Positions 1 through 6,770 of a stretch of 39,706 nt of DNA are shown piece by piece (positions within the stretch are counted from its first letter, which is position 1; the number at the start of each line of letters is the position of its first letter). This DNA comes from an uncultured Elusimicrobia bacterium (lineage in GTDB: Bacteria > Elusimicrobiota > Elusimicrobia > UBA1565 > UBA9628), in NCBI GenBank assembly GCA_903881545.1, contig CAIRTQ010000083.1, forward strand, positions 1-39,706, written 5' to 3'. Made by a program: the position numbers and the translations under genes. The notes under the pieces are model-generated. The model saw nothing but the letters and a program-made list of their open reading frames with translations. It ran no database searches and was not told the origin of the DNA.

Positions 1-1
1 G

Positions 2-448
2 CACGCCCTACAGCGGTTCCTCTACGGCGATTACGACAGCTGGGACCACGAGTACCGTCCGCGGGTGACCACGCCCTCCTCGATCAAGTACCTTGTGATC
101 GCCGCGATCTGGGGTTCGAAGCATGGTCTGGAGAAGAAGCCGGCCTGGCCCCAGGTGCCGGTGCGTCTGCCGTGCGCGGTCATCGGCCGGGGCGAGGGGA
201 TCACCGTGCGCGGGCGCCTGCTGGAGATGAGCCCGCTGGGCATGAACGTGGCCTTGAACGGCGCGGTCCCGCTCGCGCAGGAACTCACCTTCCTCTTCCC
301 GCCCCAGGACCAGCTGCCGGTACACCTACAGGGGCGCATGGTCACCGGGCGCATCGTGCGGCCGATAGGCGAAAACGGCCATGCGCATACCTACCGGATC
401 CGTTTCACGAAGCCCGACTTCGTGGACATGAGCGGTGTCGCGGCATGA
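2..448 (+). CDS. C-terminal part of a PilZ-domain protein, probably a BcsA-like cellulose synthase (5' truncated by window edge)
   Basis: The frame is open to the window edge, so only the last 148 residues are seen. The first residues (HALQRFLYGDYDSWDHEY) resemble the end of a PilZ domain as found in BcsA-type synthases, where a similar F-G-x-x-D-x-W stretch closes the domain. A second PilZ-like beta fold follows, with the G-x-x-x-x-x-G-R-L-L-E-M-S-P-L-G region standing in for the usual D-x-S-x-x-G box. The Asp is replaced and no clear RxxxR is seen, so c-di-GMP binding by this second copy is doubtful. The stop overlaps the next start as ATGA (445-448). The following genes are BcsG-type, which supports a glycan synthase. 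Identity as BcsA is inference; any PilZ glycosyltransferase of an exopolysaccharide operon would fit. Confidence 0.6.
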   Translation, partial: HALQRFLYGDYDSWDHEYRPRVTTPSSIKYLVIAAIWGSKHGLEKKPAWPQVPVRLPCAVIGRGEGITVRGRLLEMSPLGMNVALNGAVPLAQELTFLFPPQDQLPVHLQGRMVTGRIVRPIGENGHAHTYRIRFTKPDFVDMSGVAA

Positions 449-735
449 ACGAGACGCCACGCAGATCCGCCCCCGTCATCTGGGAAAGCCCCATGTCGGG
501 ACTTTGGGCCTTCTATTTCTTCGCCAAGCTCTATTTCTTCTACCGGGGGTACATGTCCTTCACCCCCACGTTCAACCTGCTCCTGCTTCTGGCCATCATC
601 GTGCCCCTGCCGCTGGCGTGGGGCTCCAACATGTTCGTCGCTTTCCTGCGCGGCCTAGCCCTGTTCGTGGCGGGTTTCCTTCTGTTGTGGAGAGATTCCT
701 TCCTGCCGAGCCTGGCCACCAGCCTTCTTTCGTGA
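445..735 (+). CDS. N-terminal membrane half of a split BcsG-like cellulose phosphoethanolamine transferase
   Basis: This 96-residue protein has two or three hydrophobic spans (about residues 18-35, 41-60 and 64-85). Its order of landmarks, S-G-x-W-x-F-Y-F near residue 20, then G-Y-x-x-F-x-P-x-x-N-L, a P-L-P turn and W-R-D-S-x-L-P at the end, matches from memory the start of E. coli BcsG, an inner-membrane protein whose N-terminal helices anchor a periplasmic transferase domain. Here the frame ends with TGA at 733-735 while the rest of BcsG continues in another frame from a GTG at 732. So the anchor and the catalytic part are separate, overlapping genes (GTGA), or the gene carries a one-base frameshift. 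The start is ATG 445, overlapping the upstream stop. Confidence 0.75.
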   Translation: MNETPRRSAPVIWESPMSGLWAFYFFAKLYFFYRGYMSFTPTFNLLLLLAIIVPLPLAWGSNMFVAFLRGLALFVAGFLLLWRDSFLPSLATSLLS

Positions 736-2051
736 CCGATACCTCCACCGCGCCCTCCAAGACATACATGATGGACTTTGCCCACCGCTACTACAATCCG
801 CGGGAGTTCGCCATCCTCTTAGCCCTGCTGGTCGCCTGCATCTGGGTGCGGCGCAAGGGCGTACGCCTGACGCCCTTACTCTTGCCCCTGATCTTCCTGG
901 CCACCATCTCGGGCATCTCCTCGCGGCACGGCGCCTCCGGCGACCGCATCGATGTCTTCTATGCCCAGGAGGGCAAACGCGTGGTCCGATTCCAGGCGCC
1001 GCCGGTCGGCGCCCCGGATTTCGACATCCTCCTGATCCAGATCTGCTCGCTGGGCTGGGACGATCTCGACGCCGCGGGCCTGCGGGATCATCCCTTCTGG
1101 AAGAATTTTGATTATCTCTTTACCAATTATAACGGCGCGACTTCCTACAGCAATCCCGCCGCGCACCGCCTGCTCCACGCGCCCTGCGGGCAGCTGGCGC
1201 ACGAGGACCTCTACCGCGACATACCCAAGGATTGCTATCTTCTCGACGAGTTGCGCCGAGTCGGCTTCCGCACCTACTCGGCTTTCGACCATGACGGGGT
1301 CTACGGCCATTTTGCCGAGGAGGCCGTGAGGATCGACCACGCCGATCCACCCATGCCGCTGGACGGACTTCCCGTGGTGGAGCACAATTTTGAGGGCTCC
1401 GCGATATACGACCCCTACGCTGTCCTTGAGAAATGGTGGCGCCGCAGGCAGGCGGACGGCGCTCCGCGCGTCGCGCTGTTCTACAACGCCACCCTCCTGC
1501 ACGACGGCGCCCATTTCGCGAAGGACAAGGAGTGGTGGAAGCGCGACCGGGGCGACCGCTACCACGAGGCAGTCCTGCAGCTCTTCGCCGACATCCAGCG
1601 CTTCCTGGAACTGCTGGCCGCCTCGGGCCGTCCCGTGATCGTGGTTTTCGTGCCCGAGCATGGCATGGGACTGCGGGGCTCCCGGATGCAGGCCGCCGGC
1701 CTGCGCGACATTCCCCTGCCGCCGCTGACGATGATTCCGGTGGGGATCAAGGTCTTCAACGGCGGCATTCCCGCCGCGGCGGCGGGCTCGCCCCGGATCA
1801 TAGACGCCCCGGTCAGCCACCTGGCCTTGGCCGAGATCCTTGCGGCCTTCATCCGCCAGCCCAGCCTCATGGCCGGCGATAACAGCGCCCTGATGTCGTC
1901 CCTGCCGCGGACATCGTATGTGGCCGAGAACACGGGCTGGAAGGTCGCGGAATTCGATGGGAAGTTCTACCTTCGCGGCAAGGACGAGCGTTGGGCGCTG
2001 CTCGCTCCGGACGCCGTCGCCGTCCCGAACCCGAGGTGGCTGCCGCGATGA
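732..2051 (+). CDS. bcsG: BcsG-like phosphoethanolamine transferase, catalytic part
   Basis: BcsG moves phosphoethanolamine from phosphatidylethanolamine to cellulose in the periplasm, using zinc. The 439-residue product from GTG 732 begins with membrane spans (about residues 25-40 and 46-63) and then an alkaline-phosphatase-superfamily domain. Residues matching those reported for the E. coli enzyme are present: Cys105 in I-C-S-L-G-W (Cys243 in E. coli), Ser140 in S-Y-S-N-P (nucleophile Ser278), L-L-H-D-G-A-H, and Glu309-His310 in P-E-H-G (Glu442-His443), followed by the G-L-R-D-I-P Arg. The site therefore looks intact. The first BcsG helices lie in the preceding overlapping gene. The GTG start has no independent support beyond the GTGA overlap. 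The stop overlaps the next gene as ATGA (2048-2051). Confidence 0.85.
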   Translation: MTDTSTAPSKTYMMDFAHRYYNPREFAILLALLVACIWVRRKGVRLTPLLLPLIFLATISGISSRHGASGDRIDVFYAQEGKRVVRFQAPPVGAPDFDILLIQICSLGWDDLDAAGLRDHPFWKNFDYLFTNYNGATSYSNPAAHRLLHAPCGQLAHEDLYRDIPKDCYLLDELRRVGFRTYSAFDHDGVYGHFAEEAVRIDHADPPMPLDGLPVVEHNFEGSAIYDPYAVLEKWWRRRQADGAPRVALFYNATLLHDGAHFAKDKEWWKRDRGDRYHEAVLQLFADIQRFLELLAASGRPVIVVFVPEHGMGLRGSRMQAAGLRDIPLPPLTMIPVGIKVFNGGIPAAAAGSPRIIDAPVSHLALAEILAAFIRQPSLMAGDNSALMSSLPRTSYVAENTGWKVAEFDGKFYLRGKDERWALLAPDAVAVPNPRWLPR

Positions 2052-3238
2052 AGCGATCCCTGGCGTTCTTGTTTTTGGCCGCGCTGGTGTTGGCCTGCGG
2101 GTCTTGCCGCGCGGTGTCCCACATTTTCTCCGACCGCCTGGAGGCTTTCTATGCCCAGGAGTCGCAGCGCGTCGTTCATTTCGAGACGCCGCCGGCTGGC
2201 GCCCCGGCTTTTGACATCATCCTGATCCACATCTGCTCGCTGGGCTGGGACGACCTGGAGGCCGCGAGCCTGCGGGACCATCCCTTCTGGAAGAATTTTG
2301 ATTATCTCTTCACCAATTTCAACAGCGTGGTTTCCTATACCAACCCCTCGGCGCACCGCCTGCTCCATGCGCCCTGCGGGCAGATGCCGCACGCCGCCCT
2401 TTACCGTCCCATCCCTCCGGAATGCGGCCTCCTCGACGAATTGCGCCGCGTCGGCTTCCGCACCTACGCGGCTTTCGACCATGACGGCCGCTACGGAGAC
2501 TTCGCCGAGGAGCTGAAGAAAAAAGACCGCACCGACCCGGCCCTCCCGCTGGACGGTCTGTCCGTCGTGGAACATAATTTCGACGGCAGCGACATCATCG
2601 ATCCTTCCGCCCTGCTGGAGAGATGGTGGCGCCAAAGGCAGGACGACGCCGCCCCGCGCGCCGCGCTGTATTTCAACACCACGCTCCTGCATGACGGCGC
2701 CCACTTCGTGAAGGACAAGGAATGGTGGAAGCGCGACCGGGTAGACCGCTACCGCGAGGCGGTCCTGCTGCTCTTCGCCGATGTCGAGCGCTTCATGAAG
2801 CTGCTGGCCGCCTCGGGCCGTCCCGCGGTCGTGGTCTTTGTGCCCGAGCACGGCATGGGCCTGCGGGGCTCCAAGATGCAGGCCGCGGGGGTGCGCGAGA
2901 TACCATTGCCCCGGCTGACCCTGGTCCCGGTGGCCGTCAAAGTGATAAACGGCGGCCCCGGAGCCGCGGGGGAGTCTCCCCGGGTCAGTAATGCGCCGGT
3001 CAGCCATCTGGCCCTGGCCGAGATGCTGGCGGCCTTCCTACGGCGGCCCAGCCTTGCAGCCGGCGACAGCGGCGCCCTGCTGGAGTCCCTGCCGCGCACC
3101 CCCTTCGTGTCGGAGAACAGCGGCATCAGGATCGCCGAGAAGGACGGCCAGCTCTCCCTTTACCCCGACTACCGGCCCCGGACCTTGCTTGAGCCGGAGG
3201 AGGCCGAGTTTTTTATCCAGAGGCGGCGGCCTAAATGA
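2048..3238 (+). CDS. Second BcsG-like transferase domain, exported without membrane anchor (probable lipoprotein), Ser-to-Thr nucleophile
   Basis: This 396-residue paralogue of the preceding gene lacks the membrane helices. It starts with a signal sequence (K2, R3, hydrophobic 4-16) ending at V-L-A-C17, an imperfect lipobox, so it may be a periplasmic lipoprotein. The domain keeps Cys63 in I-C-S-L-G-W, Glu267-His268 in P-E-H-G, L-L-H-D-G-A-H and the Arg of G-V-R-E-I-P. The nucleophile position reads S-Y-T (Thr98, ACC at 2339-2341) instead of S-Y-S. Threonine is the nucleophile in the EptA/MCR phosphoethanolamine transferases, so activity is plausible. Nucleotide identity with the upstream copy is high in patches, pointing to a fairly recent tandem duplication. 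It is translationally coupled at both ends (ATGA 2048-2051 and 3235-3238). Confidence 0.85.
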   Translation: MKRSLAFLFLAALVLACGSCRAVSHIFSDRLEAFYAQESQRVVHFETPPAGAPAFDIILIHICSLGWDDLEAASLRDHPFWKNFDYLFTNFNSVVSYTNPSAHRLLHAPCGQMPHAALYRPIPPECGLLDELRRVGFRTYAAFDHDGRYGDFAEELKKKDRTDPALPLDGLSVVEHNFDGSDIIDPSALLERWWRQRQDDAAPRAALYFNTTLLHDGAHFVKDKEWWKRDRVDRYREAVLLLFADVERFMKLLAASGRPAVVVFVPEHGMGLRGSKMQAAGVREIPLPRLTLVPVAVKVINGGPGAAGESPRVSNAPVSHLALAEMLAAFLRRPSLAAGDSGALLESLPRTPFVSENSGIRIAEKDGQLSLYPDYRPRTLLEPEEAEFFIQRRRPK

Positions 3239-4038
3239 AGAGTCACTGTTGGCGGCAGGCGCGCCGATTTTGGAGCGGGCTTCTCCTTATGGCCTGGCTC
3301 GCGGCGGCGGCTCCCGCCCGGGCCGTGGTCGGCTACGGGGGCTCTACCTGGGGGCAGGTGGCCCAGGATTTCGGCGGGTTGGAAGGCTTGGGTTCCATGG
3401 GCTATGTGGAGCAGGGCGTCGACTGGGCCGAACTGCCAGGCCATACTCTTTTCAGAAGCTACGCCGACTACCGCTGGCGTCTGCGGACCCTCAACACCAA
3501 TTATTACAACCTTCGCGGCTTCACCCTGGGAACGGAATTCCAGTTCCCTATCTTTCGTCTGGGAGCGCAGTACAATTGGTCGGACTACACATCCAGAAAC
3601 GAGAACACACGGTCCTTTGCCCTCTATCTGGGCCATTATTACAACTGGGACCTCTCGCGCTGGCCGGGCCTCGGCAGCTTCCTCGGCGTGCCCATCGTCG
3701 GCTATCCCGGCTCCACCTGGGGCTTCCATGCGACTGACTGCGGCGGCCCGGAAGGCTTCAGCACCATGGGCTTCGTTCAGCAAGGGATAGATTGGTTCAT
3801 CCTACCGGGCAACATCCCATTCCAGACTTTCGGCCTCTATCGCTGGCGCTTGCGCAGTAAGAATGTGGCGCTTTATAACGACTATGGGCCGGCGGTCGGC
3901 GCCAGCCTGCGCGGCGGCCCGTTCGAGGGCGGCTATGATTACAGCTGGCAGTACTATCCGGAGATTCGCACGACGGTGCGGGAGAGCGAGATCTTCCTCC
4001 GCTGGTATTACACCTGGGACCTCAAGCATCTGCGCTGA
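3235..4038 (+). CDS. Exported beta-rich protein with an internal duplication, probable outer-membrane barrel of the polysaccharide operon
   Basis: The product is 267 residues with a signal peptide (basic start, hydrophobic 14-26, A-R-A cleavage near residue 30). The mature part is two copies of one module, beginning near residues 33 and 157. Each carries G-Y-x-G-S-T-W-G, then G-G-x-E-G-x-x-x-M-G, Q-G-(V/I)-D-W-x-x-L-P-G and Y-R-W-R-L-R. The modules are rich in Tyr and Trp with alternating polar and nonpolar residues, and end with Y-Y-T-W-D-L, which suggests amphipathic beta strands. I recognise no named family. The ATGA overlap with the second transferase gene (3235-3238) ties it to glycan modification or export. 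It could equally be a periplasmic glycan-binding protein. Confidence 0.75.
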   Translation: MKSHCWRQARRFWSGLLLMAWLAAAAPARAVVGYGGSTWGQVAQDFGGLEGLGSMGYVEQGVDWAELPGHTLFRSYADYRWRLRTLNTNYYNLRGFTLGTEFQFPIFRLGAQYNWSDYTSRNENTRSFALYLGHYYNWDLSRWPGLGSFLGVPIVGYPGSTWGFHATDCGGPEGFSTMGFVQQGIDWFILPGNIPFQTFGLYRWRLRSKNVALYNDYGPAVGASLRGGPFEGGYDYSWQYYPEIRTTVRESEIFLRWYYTWDLKHLR

Positions 4039-4051
4039 TGCCGCGCACATA

Positions 4052-4666
4052 ATGCCTTCGTCCTCTCCGCCGGCGCGGCTCAGTTCCGAGCTGGCGCGTC
4101 TCGCCGCGCTTTGCCGCGGCGGCCGCGTGACCTTGGGGGAACTGCTGCCGGGCTTGGCCCCGCGTGACCAGGCGCTGCTGACCGCAGTGCTTTCCGTCGG
4201 CTTCTGCCATCCCGTGCCCTTGCCCGGACTCTCCACCGTCTGCGGCCTCGTCATCGCCCTGGCGGGCGGCCGCATGGCCCTGGGCCTGGGGCCATGGGTG
4301 CCTCAGCGCTGGCACGGCCGCCCTCTGCCGGCCCGCCGGCTGGAGAAGGTCTTCGCGGCCGGCGCCAGGCTCATGCGCAAGAGCGACTGGCTTATCAAGC
4401 CCCGCGGCCTGCGGTTTTGCGCGCACCTCTGGACTCAGCGGGCCAACGGAGCGGCGATTGCCCTGTGCGGACTGCTACTGGCCGCGCCGACGCCGCCGGG
4501 CACGGCCATGCCGCCGGCGGTGGCCATCCTTCTTATCTCGGTCGGGACCTTGGAAGCGGACGCCTTGTTCCTGGCCGCGGGCTACGCGGCCCTGGCGCTC
4601 AACATAGCGCTCTTCGGCGCCATGGGAGCCGCGGCCTGGCGCGGTGCCAGGATGCTGTTGCACTAG
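4052..4666 (+). CDS. exoD: ExoD-family exopolysaccharide synthesis protein
   Basis: The 204-residue product fits the ExoD family (Pfam Exopoly synthesis, ExoD), inner-membrane proteins first linked to exopolysaccharide production in rhizobia; the molecular role is not settled. A short soluble start (S-S-E-L-A-R-L) is followed by a hydrophobic segment with the P-x-P-L-P-G-L-S motif at about residues 52-60. Next comes G-R-x-A-L-G-L-x-x-W-V-P, then two or three C-terminal membrane spans (about 140-158, 160-175 and 177-195). The length is normal for the family. ATG 4052 is chosen because it gives the usual N-terminus, although the frame is open upstream. It lies 13 bases after the preceding stop and is probably the last gene of the operon. 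Confidence 0.85.
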   Translation: MPSSSPPARLSSELARLAALCRGGRVTLGELLPGLAPRDQALLTAVLSVGFCHPVPLPGLSTVCGLVIALAGGRMALGLGPWVPQRWHGRPLPARRLEKVFAAGARLMRKSDWLIKPRGLRFCAHLWTQRANGAAIALCGLLLAAPTPPGTAMPPAVAILLISVGTLEADALFLAAGYAALALNIALFGAMGAAAWRGARMLLH

Positions 4667-4865: not shown

Positions 4866-6770
4866 ATGGCCGCAGCGCGCCGGGAAGACATCCGCCTCCG
4901 TCAAAAGCTATGGCTTGTGGCGTGGGGATTTTTTCTGACCGTTATCGGCCTTGAAGCGGCACTCCGTTTGGGCGGATTCATCATCTTAAGTCGGCAGGCG
5001 CACAGGAATGCGCTGGTCATGCAGCAGAAAGGCGCATATCGGATCATGTGCATCGGAGAGTCCACCACCCAGCTGCAGTATCCCGCATTATTGGAGCTCG
5101 CGCTCAACAAGCGCAATCCGGGGATGCGCTTCAGCGTGATAGACCGAGGTTTCGGCGGAACCAACACATCGCTGCTCTTGCACCGCTTGGAGTTGGACCT
5201 AGACACCTATCATCCGGACATGGTCGTGGCAATGATGGGGATCAATGACAACGGCCACCATATGCTTTATGAGTCGAAGACCAGCCCGCGCATCGTGCGG
5301 CTCATCAGGACTCTTAGGACCTATAAACTGGCGGGGATAGCATGGCAACACATCGCAAGCATGGGACGCCGCACCGGGGATATGCCGCACGGGGTTGCCC
5401 TGAAGACGGAAGGTCCGTACAAGCAAAAGGAATCGCTCCCGAAAGAGCCGGAGACATCGAAGTCGGTTCTGACAATCGATCCCAAGGATGAAAATGCTTA
5501 TGTGAAACTTGGGAATGCATATAAAAACCAGGGCAGATTCGCGGCTGCCGTTACGACCCTCCAGCAGGCTCTGGAGATCGATCCCAGGAATGACAAGGCT
5601 TATGTGGGACTTGGGAACACGTATCGAGCCCAGGGCAGAATCACGGATGCAGCGGCAGCCTTCAAGCGGGCTCTAAAAATAAATCCCCGCAATGAGTGGG
5701 CGCATGCGGAACTGGGAGAACTGTATCACAGCCAGGGCAGATTTACGGATGAAATGTCAGCCCTCAAGCGGGCGCTACAGATCAATCCCAGGATTGAATG
5801 GGCTTCTCTGTTGCTGGGGAGCACCTATCGAGCACACAGCAGATTCGCAGATGCAGTAGCGACCTTCAAGCGAGCTGTGGAAATTAATCCCAGCAATCAC
5901 GAGGCTTATCTGTCGCTTGAGAGCATGTATCAAGACCAGAGAAGATTCGCAGCTACAGCAGAGACCCTCAAGCGGACTCTAAAGATCAGTCCCAGCAATG
6001 ACAAGGCTCATGCGGAACTCGGAGAGCTGTATCAAGCCCAGGGCAGATTTGCGGATGCAGCGTCCTCCTTCAAGCGGGCTCTAAAGATCAATCCCAGCAA
6101 TGACAACGCTTATCTGTTGCTGGGGAGCGCGTATCAAGCACAGGGCAGATTCGCAGATGCAGCAACGGCCCTCAAGCGGGCGCTGGAGATCAATCCCGGC
6201 AACGACAGGGCCTATACGGAACTGGGAGGGCTGTATCAAGCCCAGGGCAGATTTGCGGATGCAACATCAACCTTCAAGCGGACTCTAAAGATCAATCCCA
6301 GGGATGACCGGGCTTATCTGCTGCTGGGAAGCGCGTATCGAGCGCAGGGCAGATTCGCGGAGGCAGCCGCGGCCCTCAAGCGGGCTCTGGAGATCGATCC
6401 CAGGAATGGCTGGGCTTCCGAGGAACTGGGGAAGGTGTATCAAGAACAGGGCAAATTGCCGATTTTTTTCGTTGCGGACAATTATCGCCGTCTGAAAGAG
6501 ATATTGGACAGGCGCGGTGTCATGCTGGTCTGCATGCAATATCCGATGCGCAGCATAGAGCCGTTAAAAAACATATTCCAAGGGTGCGACGGTGGGATCA
6601 TCTTTGTGGACAATGAGAAGATTTTCAAGGATGCGGTGAAGAGCGGTTCTTTGAAGGATTATTTCATAGATCTGTTCGCTGGAGATTTCGGCCATTGCAC
6701 GCCTAAGGGCAACAAACTCCTCGCCGGCAACATCGCGGACGTCCTATCGAGAGAACTGTGGAAGGAATAG
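4866..6770 (+). CDS. Membrane-anchored SGNH/GDSL hydrolase interrupted by a TPR repeat array
   Basis: The 634-residue protein has a transmembrane segment at about 15-40, then the first half of an SGNH hydrolase: block I G-E-S66-T-T, block II G-G-T-N100 and block III G-I-N127-D. The expected C-terminal block appears only at residues 607-610 (D-F-G-H) after L-F-A-G. Between them, from residue 205 to about 530, lie nine full and one partial 34-residue TPR repeats of A-Y-x-x-L-G-x-x-Y-x-x-Q-G-R-F type. Ser66, Asp607 and His610 would form the catalytic triad, so the enzyme looks complete apart from the insertion. SGNH proteins of this layout often act as esterases or acetyl transferases on glycans; the substrate here is unknown. 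GC is lower than in the neighbouring operons. Confidence 0.8.
   Translation: MAAARREDIRLRQKLWLVAWGFFLTVIGLEAALRLGGFIILSRQAHRNALVMQQKGAYRIMCIGESTTQLQYPALLELALNKRNPGMRFSVIDRGFGGTNTSLLLHRLELDLDTYHPDMVVAMMGINDNGHHMLYESKTSPRIVRLIRTLRTYKLAGIAWQHIASMGRRTGDMPHGVALKTEGPYKQKESLPKEPETSKSVLTIDPKDENAYVKLGNAYKNQGRFAAAVTTLQQALEIDPRNDKAYVGLGNTYRAQGRITDAAAAFKRALKINPRNEWAHAELGELYHSQGRFTDEMSALKRALQINPRIEWASLLLGSTYRAHSRFADAVATFKRAVEINPSNHEAYLSLESMYQDQRRFAATAETLKRTLKISPSNDKAHAELGELYQAQGRFADAASSFKRALKINPSNDNAYLLLGSAYQAQGRFADAATALKRALEINPGNDRAYTELGGLYQAQGRFADATSTFKRTLKINPRDDRAYLLLGSAYRAQGRFAEAAAALKRALEIDPRNGWASEELGKVYQEQGKLPIFFVADNYRRLKEILDRRGVMLVCMQYPMRSIEPLKNIFQGCDGGIIFVDNEKIFKDAVKSGSLKDYFIDLFAGDFGHCTPKGNKLLAGNIADVLSRELWKE
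5478..6455 (+). repeat. In-frame 102-bp tandem repeats encoding TPR units
   Basis: About 9.5 units of 102 bp (34 residues) with the core Q-G-R-F-A-D-A. Later units alternate between an E-L-G-x-L-Y form and an L-L-G-S-A-Y form, giving a 204-bp higher-order period (units 6 and 8 alike, 7 and 9 alike). This pattern suggests growth by duplication of pairs. Confidence 0.85.

Follow-up and report, generated by a model that had tools for sequence, protein, structure and literature searches.

What might a second BcsG catalytic domain be doing when it lies directly behind the first and carries a threonine at the position of the nucleophilic serine? The question is raised by the beginning of a 39,706-nucleotide stretch of DNA (the window), contig CAIRTQ010000083.1 of assembly GCA_903881545.1, which is one contig (C83) of a 2.94-Mb, 158-contig genome (G000) of an uncultured Elusimicrobia bacterium. 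The original prediction, made from the sequence alone, had described positions 732-3238 as tandem BcsG catalytic domains, and the family profile PF11658 bears this out: it matches the DNA at 945-1994 (363.9 bits) and 2129-3151 (349.8 bits), both on the forward strand, so that the domains stand head to tail. The encoded proteins, referred to here as copy 1 and copy 2, score 370 and 351 bits, respectively, and both exceed the curated cut-off of 24.8 bits. We put the probability at roughly 0.55 that copy 2 is a working BcsG-type phosphoethanolamine transferase acting on the polymer of the same operon.

Residue numbers were anchored on chain 9b8v_B of Escherichia coli BcsG, and Cys243 lands at its published place. 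Counted on this alignment, Ser278 of E. coli is the second Ser of the SYSGP motif. Its column holds Ser140 in copy 1 (the 732-2051 open reading frame, ORF) and Thr98 in copy 2 (the 2048-3238 ORF), just as the original prediction had it, and the two codons, AGC and ACC, are one base apart. The zinc ligands of E. coli BcsG are Cys243, Glu442 and His443, and Ser278, His396, Tyr277 and Arg458 are important in vivo (PubMed Central article PMC10525099; this and the other papers cited are drawn on in excerpt). Equivalents of Cys243, His396, Glu442, His443, Arg458 and Tyr277 are present in both copies, and in copy 2 they are Cys63, His215, Glu267, His268, Arg283 and Tyr97. The zinc-ligand and catalytic set of BcsG (Cys243, Glu442, His443, His396 and Arg458) is complete in copy 2, as had been claimed, whereas the Ser278 nucleophile is found in copy 1 and not in copy 2. 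Among the 125 distinct domains in the fetched loci that are 300 residues or longer, the nucleophile position is occupied by Ser in 121 and by Thr in four. The equivalents of His396, Glu442, His443 and Arg458 are invariant (125/125), and that of Cys243 is present in 124, the remaining domain being cut short. We also asked whether K276 of copy 2 represents a changed catalytic residue; this was rejected, since Lys occupies the position in 45 of 90 domains.

The AlphaFold2 model of copy 2, built from 79 rows, has a predicted local distance difference test score (pLDDT) of 91.5 and a predicted template-modelling score (pTM) of 0.90. In this model, Thr98 starts a helix (98-106), and Cys63 and Glu267/His268 lie close to strand ends. 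The top five Foldseek matches are BcsG structures of E. coli and Salmonella, with template-modelling (TM) scores normalized by target of 0.86-0.91; the superposition with 6pd0 gives 0.90 over 362 alignment columns with a root-mean-square deviation of 2.0. The other 45 matches listed, YejM/PbgA, LtaS, sulphatases, EptC and MCR-1 among them, score 0.35-0.64 by target (0.63 for both EptC and MCR-1). The BcsG catalytic fold of copy 2 is thus confidently predicted.

In a tree of 99 BcsG domains, the two window copies are sisters with support of 100/99. Over 337 codons they share 72% amino acid identity, with a synonymous divergence (dS) of 0.54, a nonsynonymous divergence (dN) of 0.17 and a dN/dS of 0.32; the terminal branch is 0.21 for copy 2 vs 0.15 for copy 1. 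Purifying selection thus acts on copy 2, which is a duplicate and not a remnant. The next well-supported set around the pair comprises 45 rows, and horizontal transfer is therefore not claimed.

Thr at the nucleophile position is not exclusive to the window organism, an idea that we had to discard. Three further BcsGs have it (L042, L050 and L152), all of them from Nitrospirota, each with the usual hydrophobic N-terminal segments according to a hydropathy scan and each the sole BcsG match of its own genome. In the tree they form one clade (support 100/99) apart from the window copies, and from this we infer at least two Ser-to-Thr changes. L042 additionally has His in place of Tyr277. The occurrence of Thr in three anchored single-copy BcsGs suggests that it is probably compatible with function and is tied neither to the loss of the anchor nor to a relay. 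A coupling between Thr and anchor loss was rejected on the same grounds, given that these three proteins are anchored with Thr and that an anchor-less BcsG with Ser (L056) exists. Consequently, the notion that Thr marks a special role of copy 2, which the original prediction had entertained, found no support.

Concerning the activity, donor, acceptor, export and tethering of copy 2, we infer the following. The BcsG catalytic domain duplicated within the operon would still be an enzyme, namely a zinc-dependent phosphoethanolamine transferase. Thr98, replacing Ser278, would be transiently loaded with phosphoethanolamine from phosphatidylethanolamine and would then hand it to the polymer of the neighbouring PilZ-containing cellulose-synthase-like enzyme. 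The single N-terminal segment, which seems to descend from the last BcsG anchor helix, would tether the protein as either a signal anchor or a lipoprotein signal, and the activity of copy 2 would supplement, or modestly diversify, that of copy 1. Our preference for a working transferase is based on the sister relationship of the duplicates, the retained Cys/His/Glu/His/Arg residues, the modelled BcsG fold and the presence of Thr in anchored single-copy BcsGs. It is also based on the operon shared with a synthase, on the Thr nucleophile of EptA and MCR enzymes (PMC10525099) and on a phosphatidylserine decarboxylase gene in the genome, owing to which phosphatidylethanolamine can probably be made.

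Several observations weigh against a working transferase. At least 90% conservation across 77 relatives is seen in 56 columns, of which each window copy alters seven; the relatives have a median of two departures and a maximum of nine, and only 4/77 reach seven. Both copies are therefore rather diverged, copy 2 no worse than copy 1. The departures of copy 2 include the nucleophile and a C-terminal Trp that is present in all 67 of the relatives with a letter there. The equivalog cut-off of TIGR03368 (410.2 bits) is missed by copy 2 (336.1 bits) and by copy 1 taken without its N-terminal ORF (355.2 bits); the full-length Thr relative L042 likewise falls below it (396.7 bits). Pfam recognised no BcsB or BcsC domain in the ten upstream ORFs scanned, so that the polymer may not be cellulose. 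In the mechanism proposed for E. coli BcsG, a linker of ~45 residues lets the catalytic domain swing between a corral presenting phosphatidylethanolamine and the polymer (PMC11379886, PMC11470070), and copy 2 is without the helices for the helical corral proposed to do so (PMC11379886). Finally, replacement of Ser by Thr is reported not to be tolerated in E. coli alkaline phosphatase, although Thr is used naturally by a Sphingomonas enzyme (PMC3145672).

The alkaline phosphatase precedent (PMC3145672), together with the loss of the Trp and of most of the anchor, might indicate that copy 2 is a non-transferring helper, whose role would be to bind the polymer or the complex of copy 1, or to hydrolyse phosphoethanolamine instead of transferring it. 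We regard this as unlikely, as the remaining metal-binding and catalytic residues are all present, the gene is under purifying selection and Thr is carried by the only BcsG of each of three Nitrospirota genomes. Decay of copy 2 into a remnant is not borne out: with a dN/dS of 0.32 and conserved columns that do not single out copy 2, pseudogene status was rejected. An ordinary redundant duplicate, kept for dosage and later to be lost, would be consistent with a tandem arrangement in one operon, with the window pair having been seen in one genome, with the lack of BcsG matches in the same-genus genomes and with both copies being more diverged than most relatives at conserved columns. This seems quite unlikely, however, since a dS of 0.54 combined with a dN/dS of 0.32 suggests constrained retention, and copy 2 has neither a stop nor a frame break.

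If copy 2 is a working transferase, the next question is where it might reside. Its N-terminus reads MKRSLAFLFLAALVLACGSC. The hydropathy scan reveals one hydrophobic segment (residues 5-23), which in the alignment falls on the final anchor helix of copy 1, and the duplicate thus seems to have retained this helix as its own signal. Compared with the five transmembrane helices of BcsG, copy 2 has this one segment, and the helices of copy 1 are spread over two ORFs. The claim that copy 2 had lost its membrane anchor is therefore right for most of the helices but not for this segment. The accompanying claim of a probable lipoprotein signal has to be toned down: FLFLAALVLAC17, ending in VLAC17, fits a loose lipobox pattern but fails a stricter one, and when the residues of the segment were shuffled 20,000 times, 18% of the results still matched the loose pattern. 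Judging by the sequence, lipidation of copy 2 at the putative lipobox is possible.

The original prediction had suggested that the two enzymes may decorate different positions or that one may act as a relay. A related possibility is a two-stage scheme that resembles AlgJ/AlgX: copy 1 would be active at the inner membrane, and copy 2 would be a lipoprotein located close to the outer membrane, serving there as the terminal transferase or as one for a second site. In variants of the scheme, copy 2 would be relayed by copy 1 or would draw phosphatidylethanolamine from the inner leaflet of the outer membrane. The possible lipobox has a Gly after the Cys, a predicted outer-membrane barrel is encoded next to copy 2, and enzymes alike in structure but distinct in role have a precedent, AlgX being the terminal one (PMC4148444). 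On the other hand, the lipobox is weak, given the share of shuffles that fit, Thr and anchor loss are uncoupled in relatives, and no second tandem pair of an anchored and an anchor-less copy was found among the genomes searched whole. On balance, we consider such a scheme very unlikely. More doubtful still is its fullest form, a two-enzyme phosphoethanolamine line with an inner-membrane BcsG and an outer-membrane-facing Thr lipoprotein BcsG modifying one exported polysaccharide in two stages and feeding a 12-strand barrel.

The features at the start of the window are collected in Table 1. Stop/start overlaps of four nucleotides occur at four successive junctions (445-448, 732-735, 2048-2051 and 3235-3238) and link the synthase end, both copy 1 ORFs, copy 2 and the barrel gene, which form an apparent operon.

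Table 1. Coordinates of the features surrounding the BcsG pair
Feature	Positions	Strand	Basis or remark
C-terminal PilZ end of cellulose-synthase-like glycosyltransferase	1-448	+	PilZ E 6.3e-5; remainder on contig C46
N-terminal anchor part of BcsG copy 1, separate ORF, ATG at 445, stop at 733-735	445-735	+	PF11658 positions 1-66, E 1.1e-8
BcsG copy 1: last anchor helices (by homology) and catalytic domain with Ser140; GTG start overlapping the preceding stop	732-2051	+	
AGC codon, Ser140 of copy 1, equivalent to E. coli Ser278	1149-1151	+	Alignment and sequence
BcsG copy 2: one N-terminal hydrophobic segment and catalytic domain with Thr98, 396 amino acids	2048-3238	+	PF11658 351 bits, AlphaFold2 model, Foldseek
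Residues 1-23 of copy 2, a signal-type segment containing Cys17 and Cys20 and a possible lipobox	2048-2116	+	Aligned to last anchor helix of copy 1
ACC codon, Thr98 of copy 2 at the nucleophile position	2339-2341	+	Alignment and sequence
Two-repeat protein, predicted 12-strand beta barrel with signal-type helix	3235-4038	+	Structure model, Foldseek

The division of copy 1 deserves a comment. Its anchor is distributed between ORFs 445-735 and 732-2051, which are in different frames and overlap by four nucleotides (GTGA), the former containing two hydrophobic segments above the threshold of the hydropathy scan. In relatives such as those of genomes G040, G010 and G035, a single frame reads through the point at which copy 1 breaks. 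No slippery motif for a programmed frameshift was seen by eye in copy 1. The four overlaps fit translational coupling, which makes a genuine split conceivable; an assembly error would look identical. The split may therefore represent either a real fission or a sequencing or assembly error at 732-735.

The synthase itself is divided between two contigs. In reverse complement, the terminal 141 nucleotides of contig C46 are identical to the window start, and a GT2 cellulose-synthase-like enzyme with a PilZ domain is formed across the two, the synthase search matching C46 at 45-1901. The synthase has HAKAGN, DTDH and QRQRW motifs; in addition to it, the contig encodes a TPR protein and another GT2, along with three ORFs that have no Pfam match. 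As in known BcsG loci, a PilZ-containing cellulose-synthase-like GT2 thus adjoins the pair, its product being putative. At the other end, the protein encoded at 3235-4038 consists of two six-strand repeats without a Pfam match. The structure predicted for it (pLDDT 91.7) contains 12 long strands and a signal-type helix, and all 50 Foldseek matches listed are, by title, outer-membrane barrels or contain one, with low TM scores by query (0.24-0.44). Relatives of this gene lie directly downstream of bcsG in 16 of the 91 distinct BcsGs with enough downstream sequence, the window included; they are found in several phyla (L014/L041, L035, L038, L043, L054 and others). On the strength of the model, the barrel protein is possibly the exit pore of a compact phosphoethanolamine-polysaccharide system. 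Further downstream, the region 4866-6770 encodes many TPR repeats, and its ends resemble by eye an SGNH-type esterase interrupted by the TPR block.

BcsG has a patchy distribution. For relatives, a contig scan with a 20-row query was used, from which the best 80 of 228 confirmed stretches were taken; a scan seeded with the two window copies alone gave no confirmed match. In genome sets that overlap partly and in which larger groups were sampled, BcsG was found in 18/340 genomes of the own phylum, in 11/56 of the own order and in 0/6 of the same genus. Elsewhere, it is present in the phyla of G340 (10/24 genomes), G341 (15/395) and G345 (3/365), in the class of G349 (5/369) and in the order of G346 (31/369, 29 of them above the cut-off). 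Only three genomes of these sets have two catalytic domains, namely that of the window, G040 and G340, and the make-up differs in each. In G217, an N-terminal BcsG fragment with an internal stop (C23, 27376-27573) lies on a contig other than that of the main BcsG.

The window pair is valuable because nature has here exchanged Ser for Thr at the nucleophile of a zinc phosphoethanolamine transferase. A closely related Ser sister lies in the same operon, and an independent clade with Thr exists elsewhere. Having the sister for comparison allows a clean test of the effect of Ser vs Thr in this superfamily. A further suggestion from the pair is that the catalytic domain of BcsG can be separated from the larger part of its anchor.

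The original prediction knew of no described BcsG pair of this kind. None, and no Thr BcsG either, was found in the open-licence PubMed Central literature, as far as its listings and excerpts go. A survey of exopolysaccharide operons reports 24 locus duplications in cellulose operons, the loci being unspecified in its excerpt (PMC7112194). The strings 'BcsG1' and 'BcsG2' counted in PMC11379886 were not taken as a named pair, as its excerpts print no such names and the strings look like reference numbers run onto 'BcsG'.

Among known systems, AlgJ/AlgX of alginate acetylation is likewise a pair of modification enzymes that are similar in structure and serve a single exopolysaccharide pathway (PMC4148444), but its fold and chemistry are different, and a relay in the window pair is putative. 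EptA, EptC and MCR share with copy 2 the alkaline phosphatase superfamily fold, the presumed phosphatidylethanolamine donor and Thr at the nucleophile position. EptA and MCR enzymes use this Thr as their nucleophile, and EptC has a conserved Thr (PMC10525099). The original prediction had compared Thr98 with these enzymes, and by alignment the residue is indeed there, but the likeness ends at that point. Their zinc ligands are Glu/Asp/His and the Thr (PMC10525099), whereas those of copy 2 are of the BcsG type (Cys63, Glu267 and His268), and the second-site His of class I is Arg283 in copy 2. The BcsG profile gave no remote match listed up to E 5 against EptA/MCR sequences in the PDB, and the likeness is therefore one of fold only.

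Closer to the window is a tandem pair in another Elusimicrobia genome (L041 in G040, JACQPI010000091.1), where two BcsGs are likewise flanked by a PilZ synthase on one side and by a relative of the barrel gene on the other. Both of these have Ser and anchors, and since they are not sisters in the tree, the same duplication event was rejected. This older tandem pair is located at 4702-8648 of contig C55, and a GH10 gene follows it. L056 (WY2.bin26, G340; 2980-4335) resembles copy 2 in having its catalytic domain behind a single signal-type segment and in the presence of a second, anchored BcsG in the genome; it differs in its Ser nucleophile and in being an orphan, no synthase being seen in the ORF list, inspected by eye, of its 8.9-kb contig. 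The closest likeness is to BcsG itself (PF11658/TIGR03368), the cellulose phosphoethanolamine transferase of E. coli and Salmonella. In common are the catalytic fold, the Cys/Glu/His zinc ligands, the catalytic His, the Arg458 equivalent, the conserved Cys pair (Cys110 and Cys126) and the PilZ synthase alongside. Copy 2 differs in having Thr for Ser278, one N-terminal hydrophobic segment instead of five helices and a place as a second copy in the operon, and the locus differs in the ten upstream ORFs scanned, which are without a recognised BcsB or BcsC domain. Taken together, copy 2 has the look of a working variant of an enzyme already known, and not of a novel type of system.

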